From an uncultured Candidatus Thioglobus sp. (lineage in GTDB: Bacteria; Pseudomonadota; Gammaproteobacteria; PS1; Pseudothioglobaceae): a stretch of DNA of 64,000 nt. The stretch covers positions 434,001 through 498,000 of the forward strand of contig CAJJCX010000004.1 in the NCBI GenBank assembly GCA_905182815.1, read 5' to 3'. A model generated the notes under the pieces. The model was not told the DNA's origin, did not search any database, and was given only the letters and a program-made list of their open reading frames with translations. Below, piece by piece: positions 15,705 through 49,137 of the stretch; within the stretch, counting starts at the first letter, position 1; every line of letters starts with the position of its first letter. Position numbers and translations under genes: made by a program.

Positions 15705-16436
15705 ATGACTATAGAATCAAAAAAATATCAAATATCTGACGCTTTGAGCGAGAGAAGGGATAGGCCATCAGTAGGACTGATAGTTTTAAATACAGATTTC
15801 ACCTTTGAGCGTGACTTTGTAAGGATGTACACAGAGCAAAAACCAGACTATGACTTTTATTTCAACCGAATTCATTTTGCAAACCCTATGACCCCAGAGT
15901 CTTTAGCGGCAATTGGCGATGATTTGACTGAAGCTGCAGCACTAATACTTCCTAATTATGATCTCGATCTAGTTGTATTTAATTGCACCTCTTCATCATC
16001 CATAGTTGGCGATGAGGCAATAGAGTCTGCAATTCATGAAAGTAAGCCAACTGCAAAAGTTCTTTCTACCTCTCAAGCGGTTGTTGCAAATTTTAAGGCG
16101 CGAGGCTTTAAAAAAATCAGCGTTTTAACGCCTTATAGTGAAGAAGTTTCCTCTCTTTTGAGGGGCTATTTAGAGCGCAATGGTGTTGAAATGGTGTCGT
16201 CAATGCATATGGATATGGATGATGACAGAGATGTTGCTATGCTCCCTGCTGATGAAATCATTGCAGCAGCAAAGGCAGCAATTCATGAGGATGCGGATGC
16301 GATTTTTATATCGTGTACAGCAATGAGATCAGCAGAAATAATTCCTGAAATTGAAGCGGCTATTGGTAAGCCAGTCTTTACTTCAAACCAGGCTACTTTT
16401 GATCAAATTTCTCAAATTATAGGCAGTCTTAATTAG
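15705..16436 (+). CDS. EutA/maleate-isomerase-like Asp/Glu racemase superfamily protein
   Basis: 243 residues in the fold shared by aspartate/glutamate racemases, maleate cis-trans isomerases and arylmalonate decarboxylases. The two cysteines expected in the active site are C94 (FNCTSSSS) and C204 (ISCTAMRS). Proteins of this kind named EutA sit in ectoine-use gene clusters of some proteobacteria. The M24 enzyme and Lrp regulator next door suggest the same here, though the exact reaction is not established. It follows the SMR gene by 6 bp and ends at a strong terminator. Maleate isomerase remains an alternative. Confidence 0.8.
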   Translation: MTIESKKYQISDALSERRDRPSVGLIVLNTDFTFERDFVRMYTEQKPDYDFYFNRIHFANPMTPESLAAIGDDLTEAAALILPNYDLDLVVFNCTSSSSIVGDEAIESAIHESKPTAKVLSTSQAVVANFKARGFKKISVLTPYSEEVSSLLRGYLERNGVEMVSSMHMDMDDDRDVAMLPADEIIAAAKAAIHEDADAIFISCTAMRSAEIIPEIEAAIGKPVFTSNQATFDQISQIIGSLN

Positions 16437-16484
16437 CCAGACTAAAGCATCTCTAAGGCCTGTAAAGTACTGATTATTATCATT

Positions 16485-16509
16485 AATTCACACAGCAGTG
16501 AATTTTTTT
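16485..16509 (+). terminator. Intrinsic terminator after the SMR/EutA-like pair
   Basis: A 7-bp perfect stem (16485-16491 with 16498-16504), a six-base loop and a run of seven T (16503-16509). It lies about 50 bp after the EutA-like stop and separates this operon from the regulator gene. Confidence 0.75.
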
Positions 16510-16545
16510 GGTAAATTAAATACCATTTAGAGTCATAATAGTTCC

Positions 16546-17049
16546 ATGCATAAGCTTGATGAAAGAGACATTCAAATACTGGTTATTCTTCAGAAAGAAG
16601 GAAGAATAACTAAAACCGCTCTTGCAGAAAAACTTAATTTATCACTTACCCCTTCCTGGGATCGACTTCAAAGATTAGAGGAGGCTGGGATTATTGAAAG
16701 CTACGGCGCAAGACTGTCCTCTTCATTTTTAGATAATTTTCATCTAGTAATTACTGAGGTTGAACTTGAGAGTCATAAGCAAGGCCAGTTTGCACGATTT
16801 GAAGAAGCTATACTGGGCTTTGATGAAGTACTCTCATGCTGGTCTGTGGGCGGAGGCCTAGACTACATATTAAAAGTCCTTGTTAAAGACGTTACTGGTT
16901 ACCAAGAATTCATTAAGAGAGTCTTAAAGGCAGATATTGGGATGAGGCGTTATTTCAGTTATGCAGTCTTGAATAAAATCAAAGATACTGATGTTATTCC
17001 TGAAGGCTTAATCAAAAAGTCAGACTTAGTGAAGAGAAACCTTACTTAA
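16546..17049 (+). CDS. Lrp/AsnC family transcriptional regulator (DoeX-like)
   Basis: 167 residues: an N-terminal winged helix-turn-helix (about 4-60, LDERDIQILVILQ ... LTPSWDRLQRLEEAGIIESY) and a C-terminal RAM/ACT-like effector domain (about 70-150). Lrp-type regulators bind amino acids or their derivatives. In ectoine catabolic clusters the regulator DoeX/AsnC is of this type and sits beside doeA. Here it is convergent with the M24 gene (8-base overlap of 3' ends), so it probably controls that gene and its partner. The ligand is not known; an ectoine breakdown product is the inference. Confidence 0.85.
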   Translation: MHKLDERDIQILVILQKEGRITKTALAEKLNLSLTPSWDRLQRLEEAGIIESYGARLSSSFLDNFHLVITEVELESHKQGQFARFEEAILGFDEVLSCWSVGGGLDYILKVLVKDVTGYQEFIKRVLKADIGMRRYFSYAVLNKIKDTDVIPEGLIKKSDLVKRNLT

Positions 17050-18220
17050 CTAATAGCTTCCTGGGAACATTAGATAGGCATTCACCGCCATTACTTCCAA
17101 CGCGAATACTCTCAGTCATTTCAAAGCCCCAGTCATCAAACCAGATCGCGGGCATAAAATGAAATGTCATGTTTTCTTCTAAAACTGTTTGATCAGTTCC
17201 TCGAAGACTCATTGTGCGCTCGCCCCAGTCAGGTGGGTAACTGCAACCAATAGGGTAGCCACATCGGTTATTTTTTTCATAGCCATATTTTTTCAGAGTC
17301 GCTGTAAAGTTGTCTGAAATCTGAGCGCAGGTATTGCCCGGCTTGAACATCTCGATAGCATTTACAATGCACTCATTAATAACCTTTTCAATATCTAAGT
17401 ACTGCTGAGGGGGCGTTCCTAAAAATAAAGTTCTTGAGCAGGGGCAGTGATATCTTGCGTACGCTCCTCCAAGCTCTAAAAACATACCTTCATTATTTTT
17501 TAGTGGCTCATCATTCCATGTCATATGACAGGCCGCCGCTTCTTCTCCTGCACCAATAAGAGGAACGAATGAGGCATAGTCTCCATAATGCCCTTGGTGT
17601 CCTTGAACGCCTGCGTGATATATTTCAGCAACCAAGTCATTTTTCTTCATTCCAGGTTCTGCCACCTGCATAACCCTTTCATAAACTCCTTCAATAACCT
17701 TACCTGCACGTTTCATGTAAGTAATTTCAGTTTCAGATTTAACGGCTCTTTGCCAGTTAACTAGCCCTGTCTGATCACTAAAAGTTGCTGCAGGAAGTGA
17801 GCTATATAATGACTCTGCGGCTCTGGCAGAGAAATAATAGTTATCTTTTTCTAGGCCAATTCTTTTATTATGCAGACCTTTCTCTTTTAGGATATTGGCA
17901 AGGAACTCCATTGGATGTCTCTCGGGGCTCATCACATAATCATCTGGATATGAGAGGATATTATTTAACTCAAGGTCTGTAGTAAGTTCTGCCCCTTTTG
18001 CATCAATCCCTCTGCCATACCAAAAAAGACCACCATCTGTTGTAATTACAACGCATTGATGAACATAAAATGACCAGCCATCATAACCCGTTAACCAGAA
18101 CATATTAGCAGGGTCATAAACAATTAAAACTTCTACGTTTAAAGCATTCATTGACTTGCGAGTCTTTAATTGTCTATCAAGGTACTCCTCTTGAGAAAAT
18201 CTTCTTCTTTCTTGTTTCAT
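17042..18220 (-). CDS. doeA: M24-family ectoine hydrolase-like enzyme
   Basis: 392 residues with a creatinase-type N-terminal domain (about 10-160) and a pita-bread M24 domain (about 165-385). H232 in CHMTWND aligns with the catalytic histidine region of creatinase; E249, E367 and E370 line the active-site strands. The metal-binding Asp pair of aminopeptidase P is not kept: the LELGG and YHCPCSRT segments replace the two aspartates, so a non-metallo hydrolase like creatinase or DoeA is expected. DoeA opens the ectoine ring to N-acetyl-diaminobutyrate. It is 18 bp downstream of the PLP gene, with AGGAG before its ATG. DoeB, DoeC and DoeD are not in this window. Other cyclic amidine or C-N substrates remain possible. 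Confidence 0.75.
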   Translation of the reverse strand: MKQERRRFSQEEYLDRQLKTRKSMNALNVEVLIVYDPANMFWLTGYDGWSFYVHQCVVITTDGGLFWYGRGIDAKGAELTTDLELNNILSYPDDYVMSPERHPMEFLANILKEKGLHNKRIGLEKDNYYFSARAAESLYSSLPAATFSDQTGLVNWQRAVKSETEITYMKRAGKVIEGVYERVMQVAEPGMKKNDLVAEIYHAGVQGHQGHYGDYASFVPLIGAGEEAAACHMTWNDEPLKNNEGMFLELGGAYARYHCPCSRTLFLGTPPQQYLDIEKVINECIVNAIEMFKPGNTCAQISDNFTATLKKYGYEKNNRCGYPIGCSYPPDWGERTMSLRGTDQTVLEENMTFHFMPAIWFDDWGFEMTESIRVGSNGGECLSNVPRKLLVK

Positions 18221-18238
18221 TGTATTCTCCTAAAATTC

Positions 18239-19432
18239 TTAAGAAATTTCTTTAAATGCCTGCTCTAAATCAGCAATCAAATCCTCTACATCCTCAATTC
18301 CAGTTGAGTATCTGACTAAGCCTTCAGGAATGCCAGCTGCCCTTCGCTCTTCTGCGCTGCACTCTACATGACTTGTCGTTAATGGAGGGCCAACTACCGT
18401 TTCAACGCATCCCAAATTAGCCGCCATATGGGCATATTTAAGTTTTGGTAAAAATTTCTTAATTGAATCTAGACCACCTTTAACAGAAAAACTTAACATT
18501 CCGCCGTATCCACCATTCATTTGTTCTTTAGCTATCTCATGCCCAGGATGAGATTCCAATCCAGGGTAATTAACCTGTTCAACCAAAGGATGATTTTGTA
18601 AATACGTTGCAATTAACATAGCGCTTTCATTTTGTCTTTCAACTCGAAGCTTTAATGTTTTCATACCTCTTAAGAGGCTATAGGCATCCATTGGAGCAAG
18701 GGTAGCGCCATTTATTTCACGGTAATGATAAACTTTCTTAACTAGGTCTTGATTGCCACAAATTATCCCTCCAAGAGCATCTGCGTGACCCCCTAGATAT
18801 TTAGAGGCAGAGTGCAGAGTAATATCAGCACCAAGCTCAAGCGGTCTTTGATTGATTGGAGTTGCAAATGTGTTATCAACAACAACTAGTGCACCTACTT
18901 TTTTAGCTGCCGCGCTTAAGCGTTTGATATCTGTAATTTTAATGGTTGGATTGGTTGGCGTTTCTAAATATAACACCTTGCAGCCTTTAGCAATTTCACT
19001 TTCTATTTGCTCATAATTACCCGTTTCACAAAGGCTAACATTAATATTAAGTGGCGGTAAAAATTCATTAAAAATGACATTTGTGCCCCCATAACTATCC
19101 TTGATTGAAACAAGGCGGTCGCCAGGCTTTAAAAAGGTGGCTAAGGTATTACTAATTGCCGCCATCCCCGAGGAAAAGCTAGTTGCCGCTTCAGCACCTT
19201 CAAGTTCTTTTACTTTGTCCTCAAAAGCGCGGACTGTTGGGTTTGTATTTCGAGAGTATATATGGCCTTCAGCTTCACCTAGGGCAACTTTATGCCAAGT
19301 ATCAATATCTTCGTAGGCAAATGAAACGCTGTGAACGACTGGTACTTGAGTTGAGCGCTCATATAGTTCGTGCTCTTGCTCTCCACCCCAAATACTTTGA
19401 GTGGATTGACCGATGTGTTTTTTTTCAAGCAT
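18239..19432 (-). CDS. Cys/Met metabolism PLP-dependent enzyme (cystathionine gamma-synthase family)
   Basis: 397 residues, a fold-type I PLP enzyme of the gamma-family. The PLP lysine is K211 in TLHSASKYLGGH; Y59 in YSRNTNPT, the SSGMAAI loop and D186 in VVDNTFATP support cofactor binding. Sequence cannot separate cystathionine gamma-synthase, gamma-lyase and methionine gamma-lyase. The gene is first in an operon with the M24 ectoine-hydrolase-like gene rather than next to other methionine genes. A role in handling a gamma-substituted amino acid of that pathway is therefore worth considering. RBS GAGG precedes the ATG. Confidence 0.85.
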   Translation of the reverse strand: MLEKKHIGQSTQSIWGGEQEHELYERSTQVPVVHSVSFAYEDIDTWHKVALGEAEGHIYSRNTNPTVRAFEDKVKELEGAEAATSFSSGMAAISNTLATFLKPGDRLVSIKDSYGGTNVIFNEFLPPLNINVSLCETGNYEQIESEIAKGCKVLYLETPTNPTIKITDIKRLSAAAKKVGALVVVDNTFATPINQRPLELGADITLHSASKYLGGHADALGGIICGNQDLVKKVYHYREINGATLAPMDAYSLLRGMKTLKLRVERQNESAMLIATYLQNHPLVEQVNYPGLESHPGHEIAKEQMNGGYGGMLSFSVKGGLDSIKKFLPKLKYAHMAANLGCVETVVGPPLTTSHVECSAEERRAAGIPEGLVRYSTGIEDVEDLIADLEQAFKEIS

Positions 19433-26878: not shown

Positions 26879-27305
26879 ATGCTTTGGATTAAGGCTTTTC
26901 ACATTTTGACGGTAATAACTTGGTTTGCAGCACTGTTTTATTTGCCGCGACTTTTTGTTTACCATGCTATGTCAACTGATGAGATTAGTATAGAGCGCTT
27001 CAAAGTAATGGAGCGAAAACTATATAGAGGCATTATGATGCCAAGCTTCATTATCACAACGCTTATGGGCGCTCTGGATGCTTTATGGCTATGCTTGGGA
27101 AGTCTATGCTGATCAATATTGGCTTCAGCTTAAACTAGCTTTAGTTGCAGTTCTAATTGCGTATCATTTTTATTGTGGCTATTTGGTGAGAGTATTTGCT
27201 GAAGATAAAAATACACGTAGTCATACTTTTTATCGATGGTTTAATGAGTTTCCAGTTTTACTTCTTGTTGGCATTATCATTCTTGTTGTTGTTAAGCCTT
27301 TTTAA
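26879..27305 (+). CDS. hemJ: Protoporphyrinogen oxidase HemJ, frameshifted
   Basis: A membrane enzyme oxidising protoporphyrinogen IX in haem synthesis, about 142 residues when joined. The first part (26879 to about 27068) gives WIKAFHILTVITWFAALFYLPRL with the conserved histidine and PSFIITTLMG. The second, one frame over, gives LWMLYGYAWEVYADQYWLQLKLAL and AYHFYCGYLVRVF. One extra base at about 27067-27072 (GGGCG) breaks the frame. Haem is otherwise made (hemC nearby), so an error in the sequence is as likely as real loss. The next gene is 47 bp downstream. Confidence 0.88.
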
Positions 27306-27352: not shown

Positions 27353-28009
27353 ATGAGCATCTCGCAAGACACAAAAGAGTTAAATTCATATATCAATAAA
27401 AAAGTTGATATTGAATCAGTTGCTTCTTTTAAAGGCAATGAGCACATTATCAAATTAAATCTTAAGTTTGATATTAATCAAATGCGCGAAGCGCTTGATG
27501 AAGTTAAAGCTATGTCAGAGTTTAAAACTGCTGCGTCAGGGTTTCATGCTCTTGCGATGACTCGCAGAAAGAATAGCTCTGTTGAGTCTGATAATAATCT
27601 TGTGGGTCGCTACTATACTCGCTTAGATGATAGCTATGAAGAGATAGCCAAGGATGAGTTAGTTGATGAAGGTTCATTTACTGAGCTTGTTGAAGTGTTT
27701 AAGGGTACTTATTTTGAAACCATTCACAAGGAGCTGTCAGCTCGTTACCCTATTGGAAGGGTTCGCATATTAGAGAAAGATAGCTTTAATTGCAATTCAT
27801 GGCATAGAGATCCTGAGCCAAGGATACATATTCCAATTTATACAAACCCAGGTTCTTTATTTATAGTTAACCATCACTGCACCCACCTTCCTGCTGATGG
27901 CTCCGTATATTTTACGGATACGAGGGGTTACCACACCGCCCTTAATGGTGGAGATGAGCCTAGAACTCATCTTGTAGCCACTTTAGCCTATCCAGAATAC
28001 AAGCCTTAA
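27353..28009 (+). CDS. Aspartyl/asparaginyl beta-hydroxylase-like 2-oxoglutarate oxygenase
   Basis: 218 residues. The C-terminal half is a cupin with the Fe(II) triad H151-x-D153 (SWHRDPEP) and H194 (YHTALNGG). R204, in DEPRTHLVATL, is placed to bind 2-oxoglutarate. The spacing and RIHIP strand match the Asp/Asn beta-hydroxylase family (PF05118-type) as I know it. The N-terminal 110 residues are not recognised. The natural substrate is unknown. The threonine aldolase starts 13 bp later, so the two are probably one operon, which suggests a free beta-hydroxy amino acid product. Confidence 0.75.
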   Translation: MSISQDTKELNSYINKKVDIESVASFKGNEHIIKLNLKFDINQMREALDEVKAMSEFKTAASGFHALAMTRRKNSSVESDNNLVGRYYTRLDDSYEEIAKDELVDEGSFTELVEVFKGTYFETIHKELSARYPIGRVRILEKDSFNCNSWHRDPEPRIHIPIYTNPGSLFIVNHHCTHLPADGSVYFTDTRGYHTALNGGDEPRTHLVATLAYPEYKP

Positions 28010-28022
28010 GAGTAAATCAGTT

Positions 28023-29085
28023 ATGAGCCAATATAAGAAAAATATTAGTAACCAAGAGAAGTTAGAGAGTCCAATAGATTTTCGAAGTGATACAGTTACT
28101 TTGCCATCCCATGAAATGCTTGCAAGTATAGATAATACAAAGCTTGGAGATGATGTTTATGAAGAGGATATTGAAGTAATTGAGCTACAAGAATATGCAG
28201 CGAATCTCTTAGGAAAAGAAGCAAGCTTATTTTTTCCTAGTGGCACTCAAAGTAATTTAACTGCTATGCTCGCCCATTGTCAAAGAGGTGATGAAGTTTT
28301 GATTGGAAGACACTATCATACTAATGTTTATGAGGCTCGAGGAGTTTCAGTTTTAGGTGGTGTGGGGATTTGTCCTATTGATACTTCAGCATCTGGATCT
28401 ATGAAAGTAAGCGATATGCTCAGTCAAATTAAAGATAACGATCCCTCACTATGCTGTAACAAAACTTCTTTGTTTAGAGAACACTTTTTCTGGAAAAGTT
28501 CAGCCTCAACAGGAGCTTGATGCATTGGCAAAAGCTGCGCATAGTAAAGGTTTAAAAGTACATTTGGATGGTGCTCGCTTATTTAATGCACATATACATT
28601 CAGGCCTAACACTGAAGGCTTTAACTGAAAGTTTTGATAGTATATCAATATGCTTATCAAAAGGCTTAGGCGCTCCAATTGGGTCTCTTTTAGTAAGTGA
28701 TCAAGCTACCATTAATAGAGCCTTACGATTACGAAAGATGCTTGGTGGCGGCATGAGACAAGTTGGCGTTATCGCTGCTTATGGAATGTATGCTTTAAAG
28801 AATAATGTAAAGAGGCTTCAAGAGGATCATGATAATGCAAAATATCTTGCTAGTGGCTTGTCATCATTATCAGAATTAACTATAGACTATGGTGAAAATC
28901 AAACAAATATGGTTTTTGTAGATTGTCCAGAACAGCACAGAGAAAGCTTAGGAAAGCACCTTTTTGATAGAAATATTATAATTTCTAATCTTGATCGAGG
29001 AAGGTTAGTATGCCACTTAGGAATTAGTAAAGAAGATATTTTGGTGGTTATTGATGCTTTTAAAGATTATTTTAAAAATATTTAA
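28023..29085 (+). CDS. ltaE: Low-specificity L-threonine aldolase, frameshifted
   Basis: A PLP enzyme cleaving threonine and other beta-hydroxy amino acids to glycine plus an aldehyde, about 353 residues when joined. The first part has DFRSDTVTLPSHEML and FFPSGTQSNLTA. The second has VHLDGARLFNA and the PLP lysine in CLSKGLGAPIGS (codon at 28660). The frames join if one C of CCC at 28443-28445 is removed, giving DPHYAVTKLLCLENTFSG. As written, the first frame stops at 28520. An indel at a homopolymer suggests a sequence error. It is downstream of the 2-oxoglutarate oxygenase. Confidence 0.88.
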
Positions 29086-29089
29086 ATTA

Positions 29090-29851
29090 TTAGATAAGAA
29101 TTTGGTCTAAAAAAGTTTTAGTGCGATCACTTTTTGGGTTATTAAAGAATTCATCTGGAGTATTTTGCTCCACAATCTCACCATCTGCCATAAATATTAT
29201 TCTGTCTGCAACTTGTCTGGCAAAGCCCATTTCATGAGTAACACAAATCATTGTCATGCCGCTATTTGCAAGCTCGACCATGGTATCCAAAACTTCTGAA
29301 ACCATTTCGGGGTCTAGCGCTGAAGTTGGCTCATCAAATAACATGACTTTAGGCTCCATACATAAACTCCTAGCAATAGCAACTCGCTGCTGCTGACCAC
29401 CAGATAGTTGATCTGGATATTTGTCTGCCTGCTCTGGAATCTTGACTTGTTCAAGCATGGCCACTGCTCTTTTTTCTGCTTCTTTTTTATCAATTCCTCT
29501 GACCCAGTTTGGCCCAGCCATGCAGTTTTCAAGGACAGTTAAGTGTGGAAATAAATTAAAATTTTGGAATACCATTCCAATGTCTCGTCGAACAATATCA
29601 ACATCTTTCATGGTTTCATGAAGCTCAACTCCGCTAACATGAATTTTACCTTCTTGATGAGCCTCAAGTCGATTGAGACATCGAATTAGAGTCGATTTTC
29701 CTGATCCAGATGGGCCACAGATGACAATTTTTTCTTTAAGATTTATTTCAAGATTTATATCTTTAAGCGCCTGAAAATCTCCATACCATTTGCTGACACC
29801 ATCCAGTGATATAACAGGGTTTTCATTTTTAGCTTTAGTATTCACAATCAA
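29090..29851 (-). CDS. Polar amino acid ABC transporter, ATP-binding protein
   Basis: 253 residues. Walker [11 protein letters not shown]-loop [11 protein letters not shown], signature LSGGQQQR, Walker [14 protein letters not shown] and the switch histidine (CVTHEMG) are all present. The sequence is of the GlnQ/HisP/AapP type. It overlaps the permease stop by 4 bases (29848-29851). The specific amino acid cannot be told. Confidence 0.93.
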
Positions 29852-30825
29852 GCCTTTTGTTGGTATTTTCTTTCAATGCGAGCTTGAATCATTTCAAGAA
29901 TGATTGTAAGGGCCCAATAAATCATTGCAGCTGTAAGTAGCATTTCTAAATTATTGAAATCTTTCGAGCCAATTTTTTTGGCCATGAACATTAACTCCCA
30001 AATCCCAAGAACAGAAACTAAAGAACTGTCCTTAAGCATCGCAATAAATTGGTTGCCGGTTGGGGGAACTATAATTGGTATTGACTGGGGTAATATAATT
30101 TTTCGAAGTATCAGTCCAAATTTAAAACCTAATGCTCTTGAGGCTTCCCATTGCCCTTTTGGTATGCTTTGAATACCTGCACGAAAAATCTCCGTCATGT
30201 AGGCACCATAACAAAGTGACAGAGCTGCAATACCAGAAGGAATAGCATCAATCATGAATCCTAGTTGAGGAAGGCCCATATAAATTAGATAAATTTGTAG
30301 AAGAAGAGGGAGTCCTCTAAATAAAGACGTATAAAAACTTGCTATCGCATAAGCAAAGCCATTATTTGAAAGTTTAGCAATAGCTCCAACGATTGCTATA
30401 GCAGTAGCAATTGCAATTGAAACTGCTGAAATATAAATCGTAGTAAATAGACCCTTAGAAATCATAAGCCAAATTTTGCTTGGCTCACCGATAAATATAT
30501 ACGCTAACTCAAGATCAAAAGAGTAGGCAAAAGCAAGAAAAAGAAAAAATAATTCAATCCAAACAATGAATATTTGAATTTTCAACCTAGCAAAGCTAAT
30601 TAATAATAAATTTAGGACAAATATTATTGAAAGTACAAACGAAACAACCAGTCGACCAAAAAACCCACTTTCTTGCGGATTTCCAATAACTGGACTGAGG
30701 AATTCACCAAATATGGTGTTGGTAAAATTAAAGGCAAAGAAAAACGCCAATACCGTTATTGATAATCCTAAAAGGAACGCTGGTTTGTGCAGCGACTTAT
30801 CTTCAATAACGGTATCGACGAACAT
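29848..30825 (-). CDS. Polar amino acid ABC transporter, permease
   Basis: 325 residues of the His/Glu/Gln-type permease family. An N-terminal block of about three extra membrane helices (18-115) precedes the core permease (about 125-320), whose EAA loop reads [22 protein letters not shown] single permease gene fused with the extra helices suggests a homodimeric channel. It lies 46 bp after the binding protein gene. Confidence 0.92.
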
Positions 30826-30871
30826 ACCTTTCTCTAAAACTAATTAAAACTTATATAACTAAATGCTCTAA

Positions 30872-31729
30872 TTAAAACGCAATAGTGTAGTCATTTGAAC
30901 TACCATCTGCGTTTTTAAACCACTTCATTGACATCATTGTCAATGTGTAGTCTTTTTTCATAGCAGCAATAATTCTAGCAATCTCTGCATCTAACTCAGG
31001 GTCATCATTACCTTTGTCAGTTGCTACTGAAAGAGGCTCAAAGAAAGCAGGGTCACCTAAGAAACGAATTGGATATCCATCTTCTATAGCGCCTTGAATC
31101 ATCGGAATAGAATCAATAATACCGTCATTACGAACACCAGCACCTAGGCGAGTGTCATCAAGACATGTATGACCGTCAGCAAGCGAAGTAATTGTTCCTG
31201 GCGTAACTTTATATGTAAATGCTGGAGCATCAATCATATCTAGACTTCCTTCAAGATACATTTCCCAAGTTGAGGCTGCTGTAGTACAAACATTTTTTCC
31301 ATTTAAACCTGCCAATGTTGTTATAGGTGAATCTGTATGAACAGCAAAACCAGCTGGAGTGTAATAATAAACTGCAGGGAAGTTGAGCACTTCAGAGCGA
31401 GTTTCTGTTGGCGTCATAGAGCCAACTGATACGTCCCAACGCATATTCCAGTTACCTGAAGTAATAATATCCCATGAAGGAGTGATGAAGCGAGCTTCTA
31501 CACCCATACGCTTAGCAATTTCTCTACCAACATCAACGTCAAAACCTTCCATTTCACCGGCATCGTTAATGTAAGAATATGGTGCCCAGTTTGCATCAGT
31601 TGCAATCATTAATTCATTGTTTGATTTAATATAATCATAAACTGCACCTGCTTGAACTGTCATGTTTAATGATAATAGCGCGACTGCAAATGCAATCGAC
31701 GACTTTGTAAAGCCTAGCTTAATACTCAT
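30872..31729 (-). CDS. Polar amino acid ABC transporter, substrate-binding protein
   Basis: A 285-residue periplasmic binding protein with a signal peptide (about 1-27, cleaved near VQA-GAVYDY). The mature part has the type II amino-acid-binding fold: ATDANWAPYSY, GEMEGFDVDVGREIAKRMG and VGSMTPTETR with the ligand arginine. A cysteine pair (NVCTT, HTCLD) could form a disulfide, as in general amino acid binding proteins. First gene of the transporter operon; the ligand may feed the neighbouring aldolase pathway, but that is inference. Confidence 0.92.
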   Translation of the reverse strand: MSIKLGFTKSSIAFAVALLSLNMTVQAGAVYDYIKSNNELMIATDANWAPYSYINDAGEMEGFDVDVGREIAKRMGVEARFITPSWDIITSGNWNMRWDVSVGSMTPTETRSEVLNFPAVYYYTPAGFAVHTDSPITTLAGLNGKNVCTTAASTWEMYLEGSLDMIDAPAFTYKVTPGTITSLADGHTCLDDTRLGAGVRNDGIIDSIPMIQGAIEDGYPIRFLGDPAFFEPLSVATDKGNDDPELDAEIARIIAAMKKDYTLTMMSMKWFKNADGSSNDYTIAF

Positions 31730-35262: not shown

Positions 35263-36718
35263 TTACTTTAGCCCGCCCATACAAATGTACTTTAGTTCGA
35301 GAAAGTCATCTATTCCATAGTGCGAGCCTTCTCTGCCTAATCCTGACTCTTTGATTCCGCCAAATGGAGCAACTTCATTAGAAATGACGCCTTCATTAAC
35401 GCCAACCATTCCGTATTCTAAGGCTTCAGATACGCGCCATATTCTATTAATATCATTTGTATAAAAATAAGAGGCTAGTCCAAATTCTGTATCATTAGCC
35501 ATATCTATCGCTTCTTTCTCAGTTGAAAATTTGAATACTGGCGCAAGCGGCCCAAAAGTTTCTTCTGTTGCAATTTTCATAGAGCTGTCTACATTGCTAA
35601 TGACCGTTGGCTCAAATGTAGTTCCACCATTTTTATGAGGTTTTCCACCTGCAACAATTACAGCTCCTCGATCAACAGCATCTGACAAGTGATCTTTAAC
35701 CTTATCAAGTGCTTTAAGGCTTATTAATGGACCTTGATTAACTCCCTCATCCATTCCATTTCCAACGTTTAGGGTTTTAACCGCTTCAGCAAGTCTAGTT
35801 ACAAACTCGTCATAAATTCCCTCTTGAACCAAAAAGCGATTAGTACAAACGCAGGTTTGTCCAGTATTTCTAAATTTTGATATTAGTGCGCCTGAAACTG
35901 CAGAATCTATATCGGCATCATCAAAGACTATAAATGGAGCATTGCCTCCTAGCTCCATAGATACTTTTTTCATTGTGTCGGCACAATTCCGAGTTAAAAG
36001 TTTTCCAACAGCAGTTGAGCCAGTAAATGAAAGTTTTCTTACAATTGGGCTGCTGGTTAACGCCTTGTCCAATTTCACTAGAATTAGTTCCAACAACTAC
36101 ATTTATTATTCCTTTGGGTATTCCAGCTTGCTCAGCAAGTTCTGCAATTGCTAGCGCTGATAATGGAGTTTCTGCAGCGGGCTTAATAACAACTGGACAG
36201 CCTGCAGCAATTGCAGGAGCACATTTTCTTGTGATCATTGCGATTGGGAAATTCCAAGGCGTGATTGAAGCTACAACGCCGATTGGCTGTTTAATTACAA
36301 GTATTCTTCTGTCATTTGCGGGCGTTGGAATTATGTCACCATAGGTCCTTTTTCCTTCTTCTGCAAACCATTCTATGAAGGATGCGCCATAACCAACCTC
36401 ACCTCTAGCTTCTGCTAATGGCTTTCCTTGTTCTGCTGTCATTAATATGGCTAAATCCTCTTGATTAGACATAATTAAATCAAACCATTTTTTTAAGATA
36501 ATTGCTCTTTCTTTAGCAGTTCGGCTGCGCCAATCTGGCCACGCGGCATTTGCTGCATCGATGGCCTCATCGGTTTCTTTTTTACCCATGTCAGGCAAAG
36601 TACTAATTACTTCATTTGTATAAGCATTAGTCACATCAAAACGCGATTGAGCATCATCACCAACCCACTGTCCATTGATGTATCCGTGAGCTTTTAAAAG
36701 GTTAGTATTTTTAAGCAT
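35263..36718 (-). CDS. gabD: Succinate-semialdehyde dehydrogenase, frameshifted
   Basis: Oxidises succinate semialdehyde (and probably glutarate semialdehyde) to the dicarboxylate with NAD(P)+, about 484 residues joined. The first part has the N-terminal [11 protein letters not shown] and [13 protein letters not shown]. The second has [11 protein letters not shown], the catalytic Glu in MELGGNAPF and Cys in [11 protein letters not shown], and [14 protein letters not shown]. One extra base near 36067-36070 separates the frames; without it the joint reads [18 protein letters not shown]. It is the last gene after potI on the minus strand, consistent with the end of polyamine breakdown. The indel may be an error. 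Confidence 0.93.
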
Positions 36719-36788
36719 AATTTATCCTTGTAGCTGTATTGAAATTTAAAGGTGCTAATTATAATGCTCTATTGAGCTGAAATGTCCT

Positions 36789-37592
36789 TCACGTATGTTG
36801 CGTTTTTAAAATTTGTTGTTTCTGTCGTCTTCCAATTAATGAGGCGGTTATGACGCCTAGAGTGACAACTCCTACTAAGATTGTTGAAACTGCATTTATT
36901 TCAGGAGTGACTCCTAGCCTTACCATCGAATATATTTTCATTGGAAGGGTTGTAGAGCCTGGACCAGAGGTAAAGCTCGCAATTACTAGATCATCAAGTG
37001 ACAGAGTGAAAGATAAAAGCCAGCCAGAGATAACTGCTGGGAGGATTATTGGAAGTGTTATTAGGATAAACGTTCTAAATGGGGTGCACCCTAAGTCCAG
37101 CGCCGCCTCCGTAAGACTATCATCATAGCTCGACATTCTTGACTGCACAACAACTGCAACATAGCACATTGAAAATGTTATATGAGCCAGAGTCACAGTA
37201 AAAATACCTCGATCAATTGCAAGCGCTACAAACATAAGTAAAGTTGATAGCCCAATGATTACTTCTGGCATAACCATTGGCGCATAGATCATCCCTGAAA
37301 AAAGAGTTCTGCCTTTAAAATTACCAAAACGCGTCATTACCAGGCCAGCAATAGTTCCTAAAATTGTTGCAATAGTTGAAGAAACAAAGGCAACCTTTAT
37401 TGTTACCCAGGCGGCATCTTTTATGCCCTGGTTTTGCAATAGCTCACCATACCATTTAGTTGAGAAACCACCCCAAACTGTAACTAATCTTGATTCATTA
37501 AAGCTAAATAAAATTAATAATATTATTGGTATATATAAAAATGAAAATCCAACAATCAGTGAGAAAATATTGAAGCTACCAAACTTTTTCAT
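36789..37592 (-). CDS. potI: Putrescine/spermidine ABC transporter permease PotI
   Basis: 267 residues, six predicted membrane helices, with the EAA motif EAALDLGCTPFRTFILITLP. The second permease of the PotFGHI-type importer. It overlaps potH by 4 bases. 70 bp separate it from gabD. Confidence 0.94.
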   Translation of the reverse strand: MKKFGSFNIFSLIVGFSFLYIPIILLILFSFNESRLVTVWGGFSTKWYGELLQNQGIKDAAWVTIKVAFVSSTIATILGTIAGLVMTRFGNFKGRTLFSGMIYAPMVMPEVIIGLSTLLMFVALAIDRGIFTVTLAHITFSMCYVAVVVQSRMSSYDDSLTEAALDLGCTPFRTFILITLPIILPAVISGWLLSFTLSLDDLVIASFTSGPGSTTLPMKIYSMVRLGVTPEINAVSTILVGVVTLGVITASLIGRRQKQQILKTQHT

Positions 37593-38503
37593 GAGATTGC
37601 CTTCTCTTGTGATCTTTGGTAAAGCATTATTGGGACAACGAGAATTGCAAGTAGAAGGATTGCGACTGCTGAGGCCACTGGCCAGTCTCGGTTATAGAAA
37701 AACTCTGTCCAAAGAACCTTTCCAATCATTAGCGTTTCAGAGCCGCCAAGTAAATCTGGGATTACAAACTCACCCATAACTGGTATAAAAACCAAGAAGC
37801 AGCCAGCGATAATTCCAGATAGAGAAAGTGGAACAGTTACTGTCCAGAAGGTTTTAAAGGGTCTGCACCCGAGATCAGCCGCAGCTTCTAATAAACTCAT
37901 ATCCATTTTTTCAAGATTTGCATACAAAGGGAGAATCATAAAAGGCAGATAAGAGTAAACAATGCCAATATAGACTGCAAGATCAGTATTCATTATCATG
38001 AGTGGCTTTTCAATAATTCCAATGGACATTAAAGCTAAGTTTAGTAAGCCCTCCGTCTTTAGAATTCCAATCCACGCATAAACTCTTATTAAGAAAGAAG
38101 TCCAAAAAGGAAGAATAACAAGCATTAGCAATATTCCCCTCCATCGAGTGGGAGCTCTTGCGACGCTGTAAGCTATTGAGTATCCTATTATTAGAGTTAG
38201 TATTGTTGAGATAAAAGCAATTTTTAAGCTTGAAAGATAGGCTTTAATATACAAAGAGTCACTAAAAAGAAATAAATAGTTATCAAAGCTTGCTTTAATT
38301 GAAGGTAGCCATGAATCTCCCCAAATTAGAAGGGAGGAGTATGGCGGCCTTGCATAAATTGTTTCTGCAAAACTTATTTTTAAAACATAGATAAAAGGCA
38401 GTAAAAAAAGCAAAAGCAGCCAAATATATGGAATTGCAATTACGGCATTTCTTCCATTAAAGATACTTTTAAAAAAGTTTGGATTTGTTTGCATAAGCTT
38501 CAC
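37589..38503 (-). CDS. potH: Putrescine/spermidine ABC transporter permease PotH
   Basis: 304 residues, six predicted membrane helices with a long periplasmic loop between helices 1 and 2 (ARPPYSSLL ... SFDNYLFLF), typical of PotH/PotB. EAA motif EAAADLGCRPFKTFWTVTVP. It starts 6 bp after potG ends. Confidence 0.94.
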   Translation of the reverse strand: MKLMQTNPNFFKSIFNGRNAVIAIPYIWLLLLFLLPFIYVLKISFAETIYARPPYSSLLIWGDSWLPSIKASFDNYLFLFSDSLYIKAYLSSLKIAFISTILTLIIGYSIAYSVARAPTRWRGILLMLVILPFWTSFLIRVYAWIGILKTEGLLNLALMSIGIIEKPLMIMNTDLAVYIGIVYSYLPFMILPLYANLEKMDMSLLEAAADLGCRPFKTFWTVTVPLSLSGIIAGCFLVFIPVMGEFVIPDLLGGSETLMIGKVLWTEFFYNRDWPVASAVAILLLAILVVPIMLYQRSQEKAIS

Positions 38504-38509
38504 AGGAAG

Positions 38510-39640
38510 CTAAGAAAGAAGAACCACAGCAGAGTGTGGAGCCCATTGAAGGTAAACTTCATCATCCCATGTTAAATGGTGCTCTTTAGTTCTTTCACGA
38601 TTTGCACGTATTGCCTTTAAGATTCTTCCATTATCTAGTTTGACATGGTAAGTGGAAAAGCTTCCTCCATAGGCAATATCTTCAATCGTTCCTTTTAATA
38701 TATTGTGATCATGAGATGGCGCTACTTTAGATATTTCAAGTTTTTCTGGCCTGATTGCAAACCACATTTCATCTTCAACTGAGGCGCCAACTTCTTGTGT
38801 TGCAAACACAATTGAATTTGAGTCTTCAGAAAACAACTGAGTGCCAACTTCATTTTGTCCTTTATAGATTCCTTTTAATATATTAACGTCACCTATAAAG
38901 TCAGCAACATCCTTGTTGATTGGTGCCTCATAGATTTCTGTAGGTGTTGCAACTTGAACTAAATTTCCAGAATCCATAACGCCGATCCTACTTGAAACAG
39001 TCATTGCCTCTTCCTGGTCGTGGGTAACAATAACAAAAGTGACCTCTAGTTTTTCCTGAATATCCATTAGTTCAAACTGAGTTTGTTCTCTCAATCTTTT
39101 ATCGAGTGCCCCTAAAGGCTCATCAAGGAGTAATAATTTTGGACGCTTGGCTAAGCTTCTTGCAAGAGCAACCCTTTGACTTTGACCTCCAGAGAGCTGA
39201 TTAGGTTTGCGATTAGCAAAGTCAGTAAGCTCAACAAGCTCAAGCATTTCTTCTACTCTTTGATTAATCTCGTTAGTAGGAAGATTGTCTTGCTTTAATC
39301 CAAAGGCAATATTTTTTTCAACAGTCATATGAGGAAAAAGCGCATAGGACTGGAACATCATGTTAATTGGTCTTAGGTGAGGAGGTATTTCAGATATATC
39401 TTCTCCATCCACAAGAATCTTGCCATCAGTTATTTTTTCAAAGCCTGCAAGCATTCGAAGGAGCGTTGTTTTTCCACAACCAGAAGGGCCCAGTAAGGAG
39501 AAAAATTCATTTTTGTAGATATCTAGAGTTAAATTATCGATTGCTGTAAATTCGCCAAACCGCTTAGTGACATTTTGAATTTGGATATACGGCTTCTGAC
39601 TTGAATCGAGCCAAGGGCTGAATTTAATATTTTCGGACAT
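38510..39640 (-). CDS. potG: Putrescine/spermidine ABC transporter ATP-binding protein PotG
   Basis: 376 residues. Nucleotide-binding domain with Walker A GPSGCGKTT, signature LSGGQSQR, Walker B LLLLDEPLGALD and the switch histidine in VTHDQEEA. A C-terminal TOBE-type regulatory domain (about 245-370, EMWFAIRPEKLEISK) follows, as in PotA/PotG. It is separated from potF by a terminator-like hairpin. Confidence 0.95.
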   Translation of the reverse strand: MSENIKFSPWLDSSQKPYIQIQNVTKRFGEFTAIDNLTLDIYKNEFFSLLGPSGCGKTTLLRMLAGFEKITDGKILVDGEDISEIPPHLRPINMMFQSYALFPHMTVEKNIAFGLKQDNLPTNEINQRVEEMLELVELTDFANRKPNQLSGGQSQRVALARSLAKRPKLLLLDEPLGALDKRLREQTQFELMDIQEKLEVTFVIVTHDQEEAMTVSSRIGVMDSGNLVQVATPTEIYEAPINKDVADFIGDVNILKGIYKGQNEVGTQLFSEDSNSIVFATQEVGASVEDEMWFAIRPEKLEISKVAPSHDHNILKGTIEDIAYGGSFSTYHVKLDNGRILKAIRANRERTKEHHLTWDDEVYLQWAPHSAVVLLS

Positions 39641-39655
39641 AGAATTATGCTTATT

Positions 39656-39688
39656 AAAAACCCTTCATGATGCATAGCATCATGAAGG
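39656..39688 (-). terminator. Attenuating terminator between potF and potG
   Basis: A 12-bp perfect stem (39662-39673 with 39677-39688), a 3-base loop and, on the minus strand, five T directly after (complement of 39656-39660). It sits 16 bp below the potF stop and 15 bp above the potG start. It should let part of transcription stop after potF, giving more binding protein than membrane subunits. Confidence 0.8.
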
Positions 39689-39704
39689 TAATAGTAGTTT
39701 AAAG

Positions 39705-40796
39705 TTACTGACCTGTTGTGACTTTAGTCCAGGTACGTGTTACTACTCTTTGAGATTTAGAATCGTATGTTGGGCTAATGTATAAACCTTCCATAACCTC
39801 AGGTGTTGGATAAACCGCTGGATCATTTAGAAGGTCTTCCTCTAGGAGAGGTTGAGAGGCTAGATTACCATTCGCATACCAAACATAGTTTGTTGCTGTT
39901 GCAATTTGCTCAGGATCCATTATCCAGTTAATATACTTATGCGCATTATCAGCATTAGGAGCGTCGTCTGGAATTGCCAATTGATCAAACCACATTAGAG
40001 CGCCTTCATCAGGAATCGAATAAACGATTTCTACACCATTCTCCGCATCCCAGGCTGCATATTGAGCCATAAATATATCACCTGACCAGCCAACAACTAG
40101 ACATATATCTCCATTTGCAAGAGCATCAATGTACTGAGAAGAGTGAAATTTTTGAATGTACGGACGAACCTTGGTCAAGACAGCTTCTGCTTTAGCTATA
40201 ACATCCGAATCAGTACTTCTTGGATCTTCACCAAGATAAGCAAGTGCTGCAGGAATTATTTCAGTTGGCGCATTTAGAAGATGAACGCCGCAATCAGCAA
40301 ATTTTGAAACGACATCTGGATCAAAGACCATAGCAAGAGAGGTTGTAGGAGCATTCTCCATCCTTTCACTAATTAAACCATCGTTGTAGCCAATACCTGT
40401 TGTTCCCCACATGTAGTTAACAGAGTAGTCATTTAGTGGACCAAATTGTGCTACCTGCTCTTCAATGTCGCTCCACATATTTCCAATATTTGATAATTTT
40501 GATTTATCCAATTTTTGGAAGACACCCGCTTCAATTTGACGCGCTAAGAAACTACTAGAAGGAACGACAACGTCGTATCCAGAGCTTCCTGCAAGAAGCT
40601 TTGCTTCGAGGACTTCATTAGAATCGAACACATCATAGACAACCTTAATACCTGTTGCAGCTGTAAAGTCTGTATTAACCTGCTCATCAATATAATCAGA
40701 CCAGTTTAGAACATTAACTACTTCTTCTGCAATTACAGCTTGAGCGGTAAATGTTAACGCTCCAGCAATAAGTAGATTATTTAATTTATTTTTCAT
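39705..40796 (-). CDS. potF: Putrescine/spermidine-binding periplasmic protein PotF
   Basis: 363 residues with a signal peptide (about 1-23, cleaved after AVIA). Mature motifs of the polyamine-binding family: LNWSDYIDEQV, YDVFDSNEVLEAKLLAGSSGYDVVVPS and an acidic aromatic pocket (VGWSGD, MWFDQLAIP). Putrescine is the likely ligand given the puuA/puuB neighbours; spermidine is possible. First gene of potFGHI. Confidence 0.94.
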   Translation of the reverse strand: MKNKLNNLLIAGALTFTAQAVIAEEVVNVLNWSDYIDEQVNTDFTAATGIKVVYDVFDSNEVLEAKLLAGSSGYDVVVPSSSFLARQIEAGVFQKLDKSKLSNIGNMWSDIEEQVAQFGPLNDYSVNYMWGTTGIGYNDGLISERMENAPTTSLAMVFDPDVVSKFADCGVHLLNAPTEIIPAALAYLGEDPRSTDSDVIAKAEAVLTKVRPYIQKFHSSQYIDALANGDICLVVGWSGDIFMAQYAAWDAENGVEIVYSIPDEGALMWFDQLAIPDDAPNADNAHKYINWIMDPEQIATATNYVWYANGNLASQPLLEEDLLNDPAVYPTPEVMEGLYISPTYDSKSQRVVTRTWTKVTTGQ

Positions 40797-40835
40797 TATT
40801 ACTCTCCTTTTATTTTTATTTTTACTAACTGGATT

Positions 40836-40859
40836 ATATTAAAGTTTATTCTTTAATAT
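40836..40859. repeat. Inverted repeat between puuA and potF
   Basis: ATATTAAAG (40836-40844) and CTTTAATAT (40851-40859) form a perfect 9-bp inverted repeat, 40 bp upstream of potF. A third copy of ATATTAAAG is at 40892-40900, over the puuA stop. There is no T-run, so an operator seems more likely than a terminator, though the A/T-rich words could be chance. Confidence 0.4.
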
Positions 40860-40894
40860 GCACCTTTTTTTTGAAATTACAATTCAATCATATA

Positions 40895-42252
40895 TTAAAG
40901 ATGCCTTAAATATGAGTTATATTCAAAGTCAGTAATCGTACTTTCAAATCTTTTTATCTCAGATTCTTTGACACATTGATAGGATTTTTGAAACTTTTCA
41001 CCAAAAAATTCTTTAACTACTGGGGATTCACTTGTTTTATGAACAGCTTCTCTCCAGGTTATTCCTAATGCAGCTTCATGCTGCGCATGAGCATTTCCAA
41101 TGGTTTCTTTATCAAGTGGATATTTATTTGTTATTCCTGACAAAACACTTGAAAGAATGGATGCAAATACTAAGTAAGGATTAGAGTCTGCACTTGGAAG
41201 TCTAAACTCTAAACGCGTTGCTTTTGAGGATGCCTCAGGTAATCTTACTAGGGCAGTCCTATTTTCATTACCCCAGCTTAATGTTGTTGGAGCGTGATCT
41301 GCATTATGAACTAAACGTCGATATGAATTTGAGTGGGACGCATAAAAAGAAAGAAAATCAGGGGCATTCTTTAAAAGGCCCGCAATAGAGTTCGCAAAGA
41401 TACCTTGAGGCTGTTTATCTTTGTCGACTGTAAAAACATTGTTACCATCTTTATCAATAATGCTAAGGTGCGCGTGCATACCGTTGCCAGCTTGATCTGA
41501 AAAAGGTTTGGCCATAAAGGTTGCATTCATATTAAATTGTCGAGCGCAGTTTTTAATTAAGCGTTTCATTAAAAAGGCCTGATCAGCCATCAAGAGGGCG
41601 TCATCATGATGTAGTAAATTAATTTCAAATTGTCCAGGTGCACACTCCTTGATGGCAGTCTCAGCAGGAATCCCTAAGAGTGAGCACTTTTTTCTACTAG
41701 GGCAAAGAAGCTTTCAAAGTCATCCATCTCATTCAAGTTGAGAAGCTGAACATCTTCATATCTTCTGTTAGTGCCTGGAATGATTGGCATTTGTGGATGG
41801 CCATTTTTTTGTAATTGTTTATCTACAAGATAAAATTCCATTTCAGGTGCGATAACTGGCTTTAAATTAAGCTTTTGAAAACGCTCAAGAACTGAAGATA
41901 GGATTTGTCTTGGGTCTGCATAAATTGCCTCTCCATCACCATTTTCCATACTAACAAGGCACTGGGCTGTCTTGCGAGTGCTCCATGGCGTGACTGCTAG
42001 TGAGCTTATAACGGGCCTACATATTGCATCACCGTCACCTGACATCACCAGTCCAGTTCCCTTAGGGTTATCACCCCAAACATCAAGTACATAGCTTGAT
42101 ATAGGCATTTTAAGGCCACCATCAAAAGCTTTAATTAAAGTTTTTGGTGCGGCATATTTGCCTCTTGGGATACCATTAAAGTCAACATATATAAATTCAA
42201 TTTTTTCTAAATCTGGGTTATTCTTTAAAAATTCTTCAGCGATATTAGTCAT
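40895..42252 (-). CDS. puuA: Gamma-glutamylputrescine synthetase (glutamine synthetase family), frameshifted
   Basis: ATP-dependent ligation of glutamate to putrescine, the first step of the Puu pathway; about 453 residues joined. The first frame carries IEFIYVDFNGIPRGKYA and APEMEFYLVDK. The second carries AKPFSDQAGNGMHAHLS, ENRTALVRLPEASSKATRLEFRL and SADSNPYLVFA. The frames join if one A is added to the six-A run (T run at 41688-41693), reading VEKKCSLLGIPAETAIKECAPGQFEINLLHHDD. As written the first frame ends in a stop at 41674. A homopolymer deletion, probably an error. It is divergent from the aminotransferase operon. Confidence 0.93.
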
Positions 42253-42359
42253 GTATTTAAAAGTTTGCTATTTAATTATTTATGTTACTTTTGAACAATC
42301 GTAAATTATTTTTTACTCATGATTCAAAAAAGTATTACACTATAACATTTAAAATTGTG

Positions 42360-42386
42360 TTGCAAGATAATTTCAATTTCTTGCGA
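42360..42386. promoter_or_regulatory. Imperfect inverted repeat in the puuA/aminotransferase divergent promoter region
   Basis: TTGCAAGA (42360-42367) and TCTTGCGA (42379-42386) form an inverted repeat with one mismatch and an 11-bp spacer. It lies 33 bp upstream of the aminotransferase start, in the 166-bp gap between two divergent catabolic operons. A plausible operator, not proven. Confidence 0.4.
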
Positions 42387-42418
42387 TTTTAAGTTGATAA
42401 TTTAATTGAGGAATTCCC

Positions 42419-43792
42419 ATGACTATAAGCACATCAGCTCTCCAACAAAAAAATGCCAAGCATTTAATTCAATCCTTTAGTGATTTAAGTTACATCAATA
42501 AGCCTGAGGAAACTCATATCATCAGCCGAGCAGATGGAGTTTATATCTATGACAATGATGGTAAGAAGATTTTAGATAGTATGTCTGGCCTATGGTGCGT
42601 TAATATGGGCTATGGTCAACAATCAATTATTAAGGCTGTGAATGAGCAAATGAAAGAACTTGTTTACTATAATAATTTCTTTGGGTCTAGTCATCCTTCT
42701 GCAATTAAGTTATCTGAAATGATTGCGGATAAAACTCCAGAAGGGATGAATAAAGTTTATTTTTGTGGTTCTGGATCTGAAGCAAATGATACTGTTGTGA
42801 GATTAACAAGACACTATTGGAATGCAAAAGGCAAGCCCTCTAAGTCTGTCATTATTAGTCGCAAAAATGCTTACCATGGCTCTACTATGGCAGGTGCTAG
42901 TTTAGGTGGAATGAGCGCCATGCATGCTCAAGGTGGCTTACCAATTGCTGATATTGAACATGTAGAACAACCCTACTATTATGATGCTTGTGTTGAGGCA
43001 GGTGGAAAAATTGATGAGGATGAATTTGGAATTAAGATGGCTCAAAGCCTTGCTAAAAAGATTGACGAGCTTGGTGAAGATCGCGTTGCTGCATTTATTG
43101 CGGAACCGATTCAGGGTGCAGGTGGAGTTATTATTCCTCCAAAAACTTATTGGCCAGAGATTAGTAGAATTTGTAAAGAGAGAAATATCCTTTTAGTTGC
43201 AGATGAAGTAATATGTGGCTTTGGAAGGACTGGGGAATGGTTTGGTTCTGGACACTTTAACTTTAAGCCAGATTTAATGGCATTTGCAAAGGGAGTAACT
43301 TCGGGTTATCTGCCAGTTGGAGGTGTTATTGTTCATGATGATATTGTCGATGTATTAGCTTCAGCTAAGGAAGAGTTTAATCATGGATATACTTATTCAG
43401 GACATCCAGCCTGTATGGCAGCAGCTATAGCTAACCTTGAATTAATGGAGAGCACTAATATAATTCACCAAGTCAAAAATAATACCGCCCCATACTTGGG
43501 AAGTAAGTGGAAGGATTTAGAGAATCATTCCTTGGTGGGTGAAGCTAGACAACTTGGAATGCTTGCAGCAATAGAAATTGTTGAAGATAAAGAAAATTGC
43601 AAGCGATTTGATAATAGTGGAGAGATTGTTGGAAAATGTCGGGATTTTTGTTATGAGAATGGCATAGTAATGAGGGCAATTAAAAATAAGATGGTTATTT
43701 CTCCTCCTTTAATTTGTACTAATGAGCATATTGACGAGATAATTGAAAAGGTTTGGAAGTGTCTTGATTTGACTGCCAAATCAATTAAGTAA
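42419..43792 (+). CDS. spuC: Class III diamine aminotransferase (putrescine--pyruvate type)
   Basis: 457 residues of the omega-transaminase family. The PLP lysine is K291 in MAFAKGVTSGYLPVGG; D262 in VADEVICGFGRTG and the SGSEANDT phosphate loop are intact. Closest in feel to SpuC-type putrescine/cadaverine aminotransferases; GABA aminotransferase activity is also possible and would complete the route to succinate semialdehyde. First gene of a plus-strand operon with puuB, speB and an amidotransferase. Confidence 0.88.
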   Translation: MTISTSALQQKNAKHLIQSFSDLSYINKPEETHIISRADGVYIYDNDGKKILDSMSGLWCVNMGYGQQSIIKAVNEQMKELVYYNNFFGSSHPSAIKLSEMIADKTPEGMNKVYFCGSGSEANDTVVRLTRHYWNAKGKPSKSVIISRKNAYHGSTMAGASLGGMSAMHAQGGLPIADIEHVEQPYYYDACVEAGGKIDEDEFGIKMAQSLAKKIDELGEDRVAAFIAEPIQGAGGVIIPPKTYWPEISRICKERNILLVADEVICGFGRTGEWFGSGHFNFKPDLMAFAKGVTSGYLPVGGVIVHDDIVDVLASAKEEFNHGYTYSGHPACMAAAIANLELMESTNIIHQVKNNTAPYLGSKWKDLENHSLVGEARQLGMLAAIEIVEDKENCKRFDNSGEIVGKCRDFCYENGIVMRAIKNKMVISPPLICTNEHIDEIIEKVWKCLDLTAKSIK

Positions 43793-43805
43793 ATACTATC
43801 TTTGC

Positions 43806-45080: not shown

Positions 45081-45110
45081 AGCTAGTTTTTCAACATATA
45101 GGAAAAATTA

Positions 45111-46085: not shown

Positions 46086-46097
46086 TTTCTTAAGAAT

Positions 46098-48026: not shown

Positions 48027-48050
48027 TTTTACAAGTGTATATGGAATAAA

Positions 48051-49010: not shown

Positions 49011-49032
49011 AGTAATATATTAAGTATTTTTC

Positions 49033-49050
49033 AATAATGTCGACATTATT
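49033..49050. promoter_or_regulatory. Perfect 18-bp palindromic operator candidate
   Basis: AATAATGTCGACATTATT is exactly self-complementary. It lies 22 bp upstream of the glaH start and 87 bp upstream of the GntR gene. Its TGTCGACA centre fits the GT-N-AC style sites of FadR/FCD-type GntR regulators. Probable autoregulatory operator for glaH-lhgO and the regulator. Confidence 0.65.
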
Positions 49051-49137
49051 AAATTATAACTACATTTTTAAATAATTCAAGCTATACTGTGGTTAAATTG
49101 TAAATTATCTAACTTTAAATTACATAAAAAATAGTGA

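Follow-up and report, generated by a model that had tools for sequence, protein, structure and literature searches.

The window analyzed here, a 64,000-nucleotide stretch of DNA from an uncultured Candidatus Thioglobus sp., contains at positions 27353-29085 what is probably a two-gene catabolic operon, whose products would beta-hydroxylate a free amino acid and then cleave it by a retro-aldol reaction, within the metabolism of quaternary ammonium compounds and N-methyl amines; we put the probability of this reading at about 0.55. The order of the two genes, their catalytic residues, families, fold and neighborhood association can be read from sequences; the activity, the reaction order and the substrate are inferred. 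The contig that holds the window, contig 4, belongs to a 1.32-Mb assembly that is 76.8% complete, and the closest named relative of the source genome is Candidatus Pseudothioglobus aerophilus (L059), which has a 98% identical oxygenase and is 95.8% identical to the window in DNA sequence over 16.7 kb.

The first gene (27353-28009, plus strand) is an intact open reading frame for a 218-amino-acid 2-oxoglutarate/Fe(II)-dependent oxygenase, predicted from its sequence and fold match to Cpz10 to be a free-amino-acid beta-hydroxylase, and it ends 13 bp before the start of the aldolase coding region on the same strand. The original prediction, an oxygenase 13 bp upstream of an aldolase, was right in positions, strand and families, but the aldolase is present here as two open reading frames and not as one (28023-28520 and 28525-29085, 165 and 186 codons, both plus strand). 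It also correctly placed an amino acid ABC importer directly beyond the pair on the other strand: at 29090-31729 the minus strand encodes the ATPase of a polar amino acid importer (29090-29851; ABC_tran, GlnQ-like at 312 bits), a 325-amino-acid permease (29848-30825; PF00528, HEQRo_perm_3TM) and a family-3 solute-binding protein (30872-31729; PF00497, Lys/Arg/Orn-type at 100 bits, which is below the cut-off). The importer is a possible partner of the pair (below).

The oxygenase and its relationship to Cpz10

The oxygenase has no Pfam or NCBIfam match at E 0.001, and the only PDB entries related to it in sequence at E < 1 are those of the Cpz10 beta-hydroxylase of caprazamycin biosynthesis (7v4f; E 1e-17). 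An AlphaFold2 model built from 44 homologues (pLDDT 82.8, pTM 0.84) has Cpz10 as its best fold match (TM-score 0.81 by target length), and the next matches of this predicted fold are L-proline cis-4-hydroxylase and proline 3-hydroxylase. These proline hydroxylases share a related fold and the use of free amino acids as substrates, but they are less than 20% identical to the window protein, their substrate is cyclic and, to our knowledge, they are not paired with an aldolase. Cpz10 is the closest solved protein in both sequence and fold and has the same facial triad; it differs in being only ~25-27% identical, in serving antibiotic biosynthesis and in lacking the longer N-terminal part of the window oxygenase. 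The nearest solved relatives of the oxygenase, Cpz10 and the L-proline hydroxylases, act on small molecules, and Cpz10 beta-hydroxylates an amino-acid moiety (PMC9814697).

The HxD...H triad and 2-oxoglutarate arginine of Fe(II)/2-oxoglutarate oxygenases are all found, as H151, D153, H194 and R204, and are invariant among the homologues. H151 and D153, the first two Fe ligands (H151-R152-D153, codons at 27803-27811, plus strand), align with Cpz10 H115 and D117, and H194, the third ligand (27932-27934, plus strand), aligns with H160; these three Cpz10 residues form its facial triad (PMC9814697). R204 (27962-27964, plus strand) aligns with Cpz10 R170, and is the predicted 2-oxoglutarate-binding arginine, a role that we assign to R170 from our own reading of the alignment. 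The 44 homologues share 54-87% identity with the window protein, and 53 of its 218 residues do not vary in any of them; this suggests that one substrate may be shared across the family.

Could the enzyme instead hydroxylate Asp or Asn residues of proteins as AspH does, with the aldolase as an unrelated neighbor? An oxygenase homologue in the SAR11 phage Pelagibacter phage Mosig (MT647606.1:92436-93002; 35% identical) is annotated Asp_Arg_Hydrox, and this is the observation that favors the idea. The window protein, however, does not match Pfam Asp_Arg_Hydrox at E 0.001, it has the HxD acid ligand, its nearest folds are small-molecule hydroxylases and its gene is repeatedly paired with genes for small-molecule enzymes. 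The missing Pfam match and the fold neighbors led us to reject AspH-like activity as the main reading, and we consider it extremely improbable.

The family is patchily distributed, mostly in marine lineages: 196 candidate stretches were found in ~85,000 species genomes, and at E 1e-40 the oxygenase is absent from the other 397 genomes of an even phylum sample (398 including its own), so it is rare. Viral contigs carry 20 homologues at 26-42% identity, with no sign of orthologues among them. Two public bins, L080 (labelled Myxococcales) and L065 (PS1 clade), contain oxygenases of 81-86% identity that cluster within Pseudothioglobus, and their labels look like mis-binning or misnaming.

The aldolase and its interrupted reading frame

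The aldolase belongs to the L-threonine-aldolase, PF01212, PRK10534 and GntG families. Its first piece matches PF01212 at 5e-32 and the GntG family at 8e-42, and its second piece, which contains the pyridoxal phosphate (PLP) lysine motif SKGLGAP, matches them at 2e-41 and 2e-58; scored singly, both pieces are below the curated NCBIfam cut-offs, and the intact L059 protein exceeds them (low-specificity threonine aldolase, 366 bits with a cut-off of 312; GntG family, 384 bits with a cut-off of 230). Residues H99, D182, R185, K213 (the lysine of SKGLGAP) and R327 are invariant in 17 aldolases, and presumably have the roles of their counterparts in LtaE. Among solved structures it is closest to L-allo-threonine aldolase and E. 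coli LtaE (E < 1e-90); 8pum, which we take to be mouse Tha1 (E 1e-60), is a more distant match. Both LtaE and Tha1 efficiently cleave 3-hydroxytrimethyllysine (PMC11016064), and the aldol-cleavage step is therefore chemically realistic for this aldolase family.

DNA alignment with L059 shows that an extra C near 28443 (site 28440-28446, plus strand) splits the window gene: the tail of the first piece beyond ~28443 is out of frame, and the frame of the second piece is open from ~28447. In the other genomes of the genus that carry the whole gene it is one open frame of about 354-380 codons. Values of dN/dS relative to L059 are 0.035 for the first piece, 0.12 for the second and 0.09 for the oxygenase, so by this comparison both aldolase pieces are under purifying selection. 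A similar one-base C insertion relative to L059 breaks hemJ at 27074, the gabD-like (~36000), puuA-like (~41630) and murD-like (~52100) genes also appear to be in two pieces within the window, and there are more split genes elsewhere in the source genome. These frame breaks suggest that indel errors in this assembly are systematic. Because the gene is intact in relatives, purifying selection acts on both of its pieces here and further genes of the window look broken in a similar way, the break in the aldolase is probably an assembly error, a very recent real mutation being the less likely alternative. The one-base frameshift could also mean a true pseudogene, with a pair that is functional in relatives and non-functional here, but the hemJ insertion and the other broken genes in the window and elsewhere in the genome point to sequence errors and, together with the selection on both pieces, make this very unlikely.

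Conservation of the pair and a second partner of the oxygenase

The oxygenase is present in 23 of 29 genomes of the genus Pseudothioglobus and absent from all 54 genomes that represent ten other genera of the same family. The order hemJ-oxygenase-aldolase occurs in 21 of the 22 genomes in which it could be assessed (the 23 carriers minus one with the gene at a contig edge), with oxygenase-aldolase gaps of 2-13 bp where measured; the exception is G032, in which the aldolase follows hemJ and the oxygenase is elsewhere in the genome. Among 60 more distant oxygenase homologues, 24 have an aldolase in the locus. It directly follows the oxygenase on the same strand, at a distance of -50 to +72 bp in the 21 loci measured, and these pairs are spread over several separate clades of the oxygenase tree. 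One cultured bacterium with both genes is Denitrobaculum tricleocarpae (L089). The other 36 loci show no aldolase, some of them being cut by contig ends. Adjacency in relatives had been proposed as a check on the pair, and the two genes are not rare neighbors.

The coupling is nevertheless not strict. In the assemblies of G012, G019, G020 and G029 the aldolase follows hemJ and no oxygenase was detected, so retention of the aldolase does not depend on the oxygenase. An MmgE/PrpD gene accompanies the oxygenase in 24 of the 60 distant loci, often without an aldolase; it lies directly after the oxygenase gene, in some cases overlapping it, in the aldolase-free loci L085, L087, L092, L102, L110, L126, L128 and L138. 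These MmgE/PrpD neighbors only weakly resemble IRG1 and iminodisuccinate epimerase. Both the four aldolase-only genomes and the many oxygenases with an MmgE/PrpD partner argue against tight coupling, and are the basis for a different view, namely that the aldolase is a general threonine/allo-threonine aldolase with no obligate role as the next step, and that the oxygenase acts chiefly in a different pathway, together with MmgE/PrpD as a dehydratase, decarboxylase or epimerase. The near-perfect adjacency in the genus and the tight spacing in several separate clades would be left unaccounted for, and L118, L131, L135 and L099 hold oxygenase, aldolase and PrpD genes in one operon; we regard this view as rather unlikely, and favor joint action of oxygenase and aldolase.

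Quaternary-amine genes around the oxygenase

The recurrent neighbors of the distant homologues are MTTB-family methyltransferases, GbdR-like regulators, MmgE/PrpD proteins and a Dpp-type importer, and fewer loci have betaine-type Rieske oxygenases with their reductase, BADH-like dehydrogenases or sarcosine-oxidase subunits (SoxA/SoxB). An MTTB gene is present in the stretch around the oxygenase in 16 of 49 loci, where 1.19 are expected from the genome-wide MTTB counts in the 49 genomes, a control that covers MTTB only; 10 of the 16 are within 110 bp of the oxygenase. The Poisson P value of 2.5e-13 overstates the significance of this association because related genomes are not independent, and by our own count at least seven lineages contribute to it.

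Two arrangements within the genus lead to the same view. In G032 the oxygenase (86% identical) is followed after 11 bp by a Rieske gene whose best PDB match is the carnitine monooxygenase CntA, in a locus that also holds LysR, FolD, DAO, SoxBDAG and what looks like a ProU-like transporter; the window's genome has this same locus (Rieske protein 84% identical) without the oxygenase. In G015 (L155, G015:C52, 1264-12182) PrpD, a GbdR-like regulator and SBP5/DppBCDF stand directly behind oxygenase and aldolase, so that a Dpp-type importer adjoins the pair instead of the family-3 importer, and the same set accompanies the oxygenase in other families and orders. The pair in the window has no betaine gene next to it, and none of the three MTTB genes in the window's genome is nearby. 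A search for TauD-family proteins in the incomplete source genome found no eukaryotic-type TMLH or gamma-butyrobetaine hydroxylase; its only match is a CsiD-like gene in the window.

We conclude that the association of the oxygenase with betaine catabolism is real. The original guess of an N-methylated substrate gains from the betaine and N-methyl catabolism genes near distant homologues and from the G032 and G015 arrangements, but the sequences hold no evidence for the substrate as such.

Proposed pathway and candidate substrates

In the favored route the oxygenase, with O2, Fe(II) and 2-oxoglutarate, would hydroxylate the beta-carbon of a free amino acid, the PLP-dependent aldolase would split the product into glycine and an aldehyde, and a dehydrogenase of the betaine-aldehyde/aminobutyraldehyde type would oxidize the aldehyde. 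The families, fold and catalytic residues of the enzymes and the conservation of gene order back the idea first proposed, hydroxylation followed by aldol cleavage of a free amino acid. In L082 the gene immediately behind the aldolase encodes a BADH-like dehydrogenase, and L083 has one close to its aldolase; the only aldehyde-dehydrogenase candidate in the window is the broken gabD-like gene 6 kb away. The tie to N-methyl metabolism could be that the substrate carries a methylated nitrogen, or that the products enter the quaternary-amine network.

PLP chemistry needs a free alpha-amine, and any methylated nitrogen of the substrate should therefore be on its side chain. Trimethyllysine is the best-known free amino acid with such a nitrogen. 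It would yield glycine and 4-trimethylaminobutyraldehyde, and then gamma-butyrobetaine; a betaine-type aldehyde of this sort fits the BADH-like dehydrogenase behind the aldolase in L082, and free trimethyllysine (laminine) has been reported in seaweeds (PMC3890275). Free N-epsilon-trimethyllysine is our leading, though tentative, candidate for the substrate. It is likewise possible, at well below even odds, that bacteria use the pair as a unit for degrading trimethyllysine (laminine). The oxygenase would then define a trimethyllysine-hydroxylase family separate from eukaryotic TMLH; together with the aldolase and a betaine-aldehyde-type dehydrogenase it would produce gamma-butyrobetaine, which MttB- or Rieske-type enzymes could demethylate.

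The two-step chemistry would also fit an ordinary basic amino acid (lysine, ornithine or arginine) or one freed by prior N-demethylation, in which case the N-methyl neighbors merely share glycine and one-carbon metabolism with the pair; lysine, for example, would be converted to glycine and 4-aminobutanal, an entry point to the GABA route. The binding protein of the adjacent importer is nearest to Lys/Arg/Orn-type proteins, the L082 dehydrogenase also scores as an aminobutyraldehyde dehydrogenase, and a cluster that by the appearance of its open reading frames is for putrescine/GABA catabolism (35263-46817; gabD-like, PotABCD-like importer, PuuA-like, aminotransferase, PuuB-like, agmatinase-like and PuuD-like genes) lies 6 kb further on. 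This cluster is, however, a separate set of operons, and the MTTB, GbdR-like and betaine Rieske neighbors in distant lineages would remain unexplained, so we think a basic amino acid unlikely as the substrate.

The original proposal mentioned the importer alongside this route, and its link to the pair is weaker. Orthologues of its binding protein (53% identical, L096) and permease (58% identical, L082) are found 2-7 kb from the pair in Oceanospirillaceae, which mildly supports a link, but the importer is still beside the aldolase in the oxygenase-less genomes G012, G019 and G029. Structure searches with the binding protein returned only generic amino-acid/opine and peptide/heme/nickel binders, and gave no clue to its ligand.

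Comparison with known pathways

The pair resembles the first three steps of eukaryotic carnitine biosynthesis (TMLH, HTML aldolase and TMABA dehydrogenase) in its predicted 2-oxoglutarate-dependent beta-hydroxylation, its predicted PLP-dependent retro-aldol step and, in some relatives, a putative betaine-aldehyde-type dehydrogenase. TMLH is of the TauD/gamma-butyrobetaine-hydroxylase type, and unlike eukaryotic-type TMLH the window oxygenase is not a member of the TauD family (PF02668); in addition, no carnitine genes are beside the pair and its apparent use is catabolic. The pair may correspond, in bacteria, to the first half of carnitine synthesis. The L-carnitine pathway has reportedly not been seen in prokaryotes (PMC8085414). 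In the open-access literature we found no publication on a bacterial trimethyllysine hydroxylase/aldolase route.

The cyanobacterial guanitoxin enzymes GntD and GntG likewise combine an oxygenase with a PLP-dependent retro-aldolase, and their chemistry is hydroxylation plus retro-aldol cleavage as proposed for the pair. The intact L059 aldolase scores above the NCBIfam GntG-family cut-off (above). GntG performs the retro-aldol reaction (PMC10367076). The guanitoxin pathway is biosynthetic, makes a toxin and acts on enduracididine, and no other gnt genes (enduracididine cyclase GntC etc.) are evident among the window's open reading frames. Members of the MttB superfamily and of the Rieske betaine demethylases (MtgB, GbcAB, CntA) recur as neighbors of the oxygenase, but they are outside the pair and none is adjacent to it in the window.

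What is new here is an uncharacterized oxygenase family in a conserved hydroxylase-aldolase operon, the chemistry being already known from carnitine biosynthesis and guanitoxin. If the main reading is correct, marine bacteria have a dedicated means of breaking down a free and probably methylated amino acid into glycine and an aldehyde, and the oxygenase family that they use for it is outside the Pfam and NCBIfam models. If trimethyllysine is the substrate, bacteria would gain the first half of the carnitine pathway, the methylated amino acids of seawater would have a fate, and free algal methyl-lysine would be connected with the betaine and one-carbon metabolism of marine bacteria.

Other genes in the window

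Adjoining the polyamine cluster are genes for LhgO-like, CsiD-like (glutarate 2-hydroxylase) and GntR-type regulator proteins (46809-49890). On the other side of the pair, at 15705-19432, Asp/Glu-racemase-like, Lrp-type, M24-peptidase-like (ectoine-hydrolase-like) and PLP gamma-lyase-like genes were recognized by eye, and these form a possible ectoine or amino-acid catabolism cluster.
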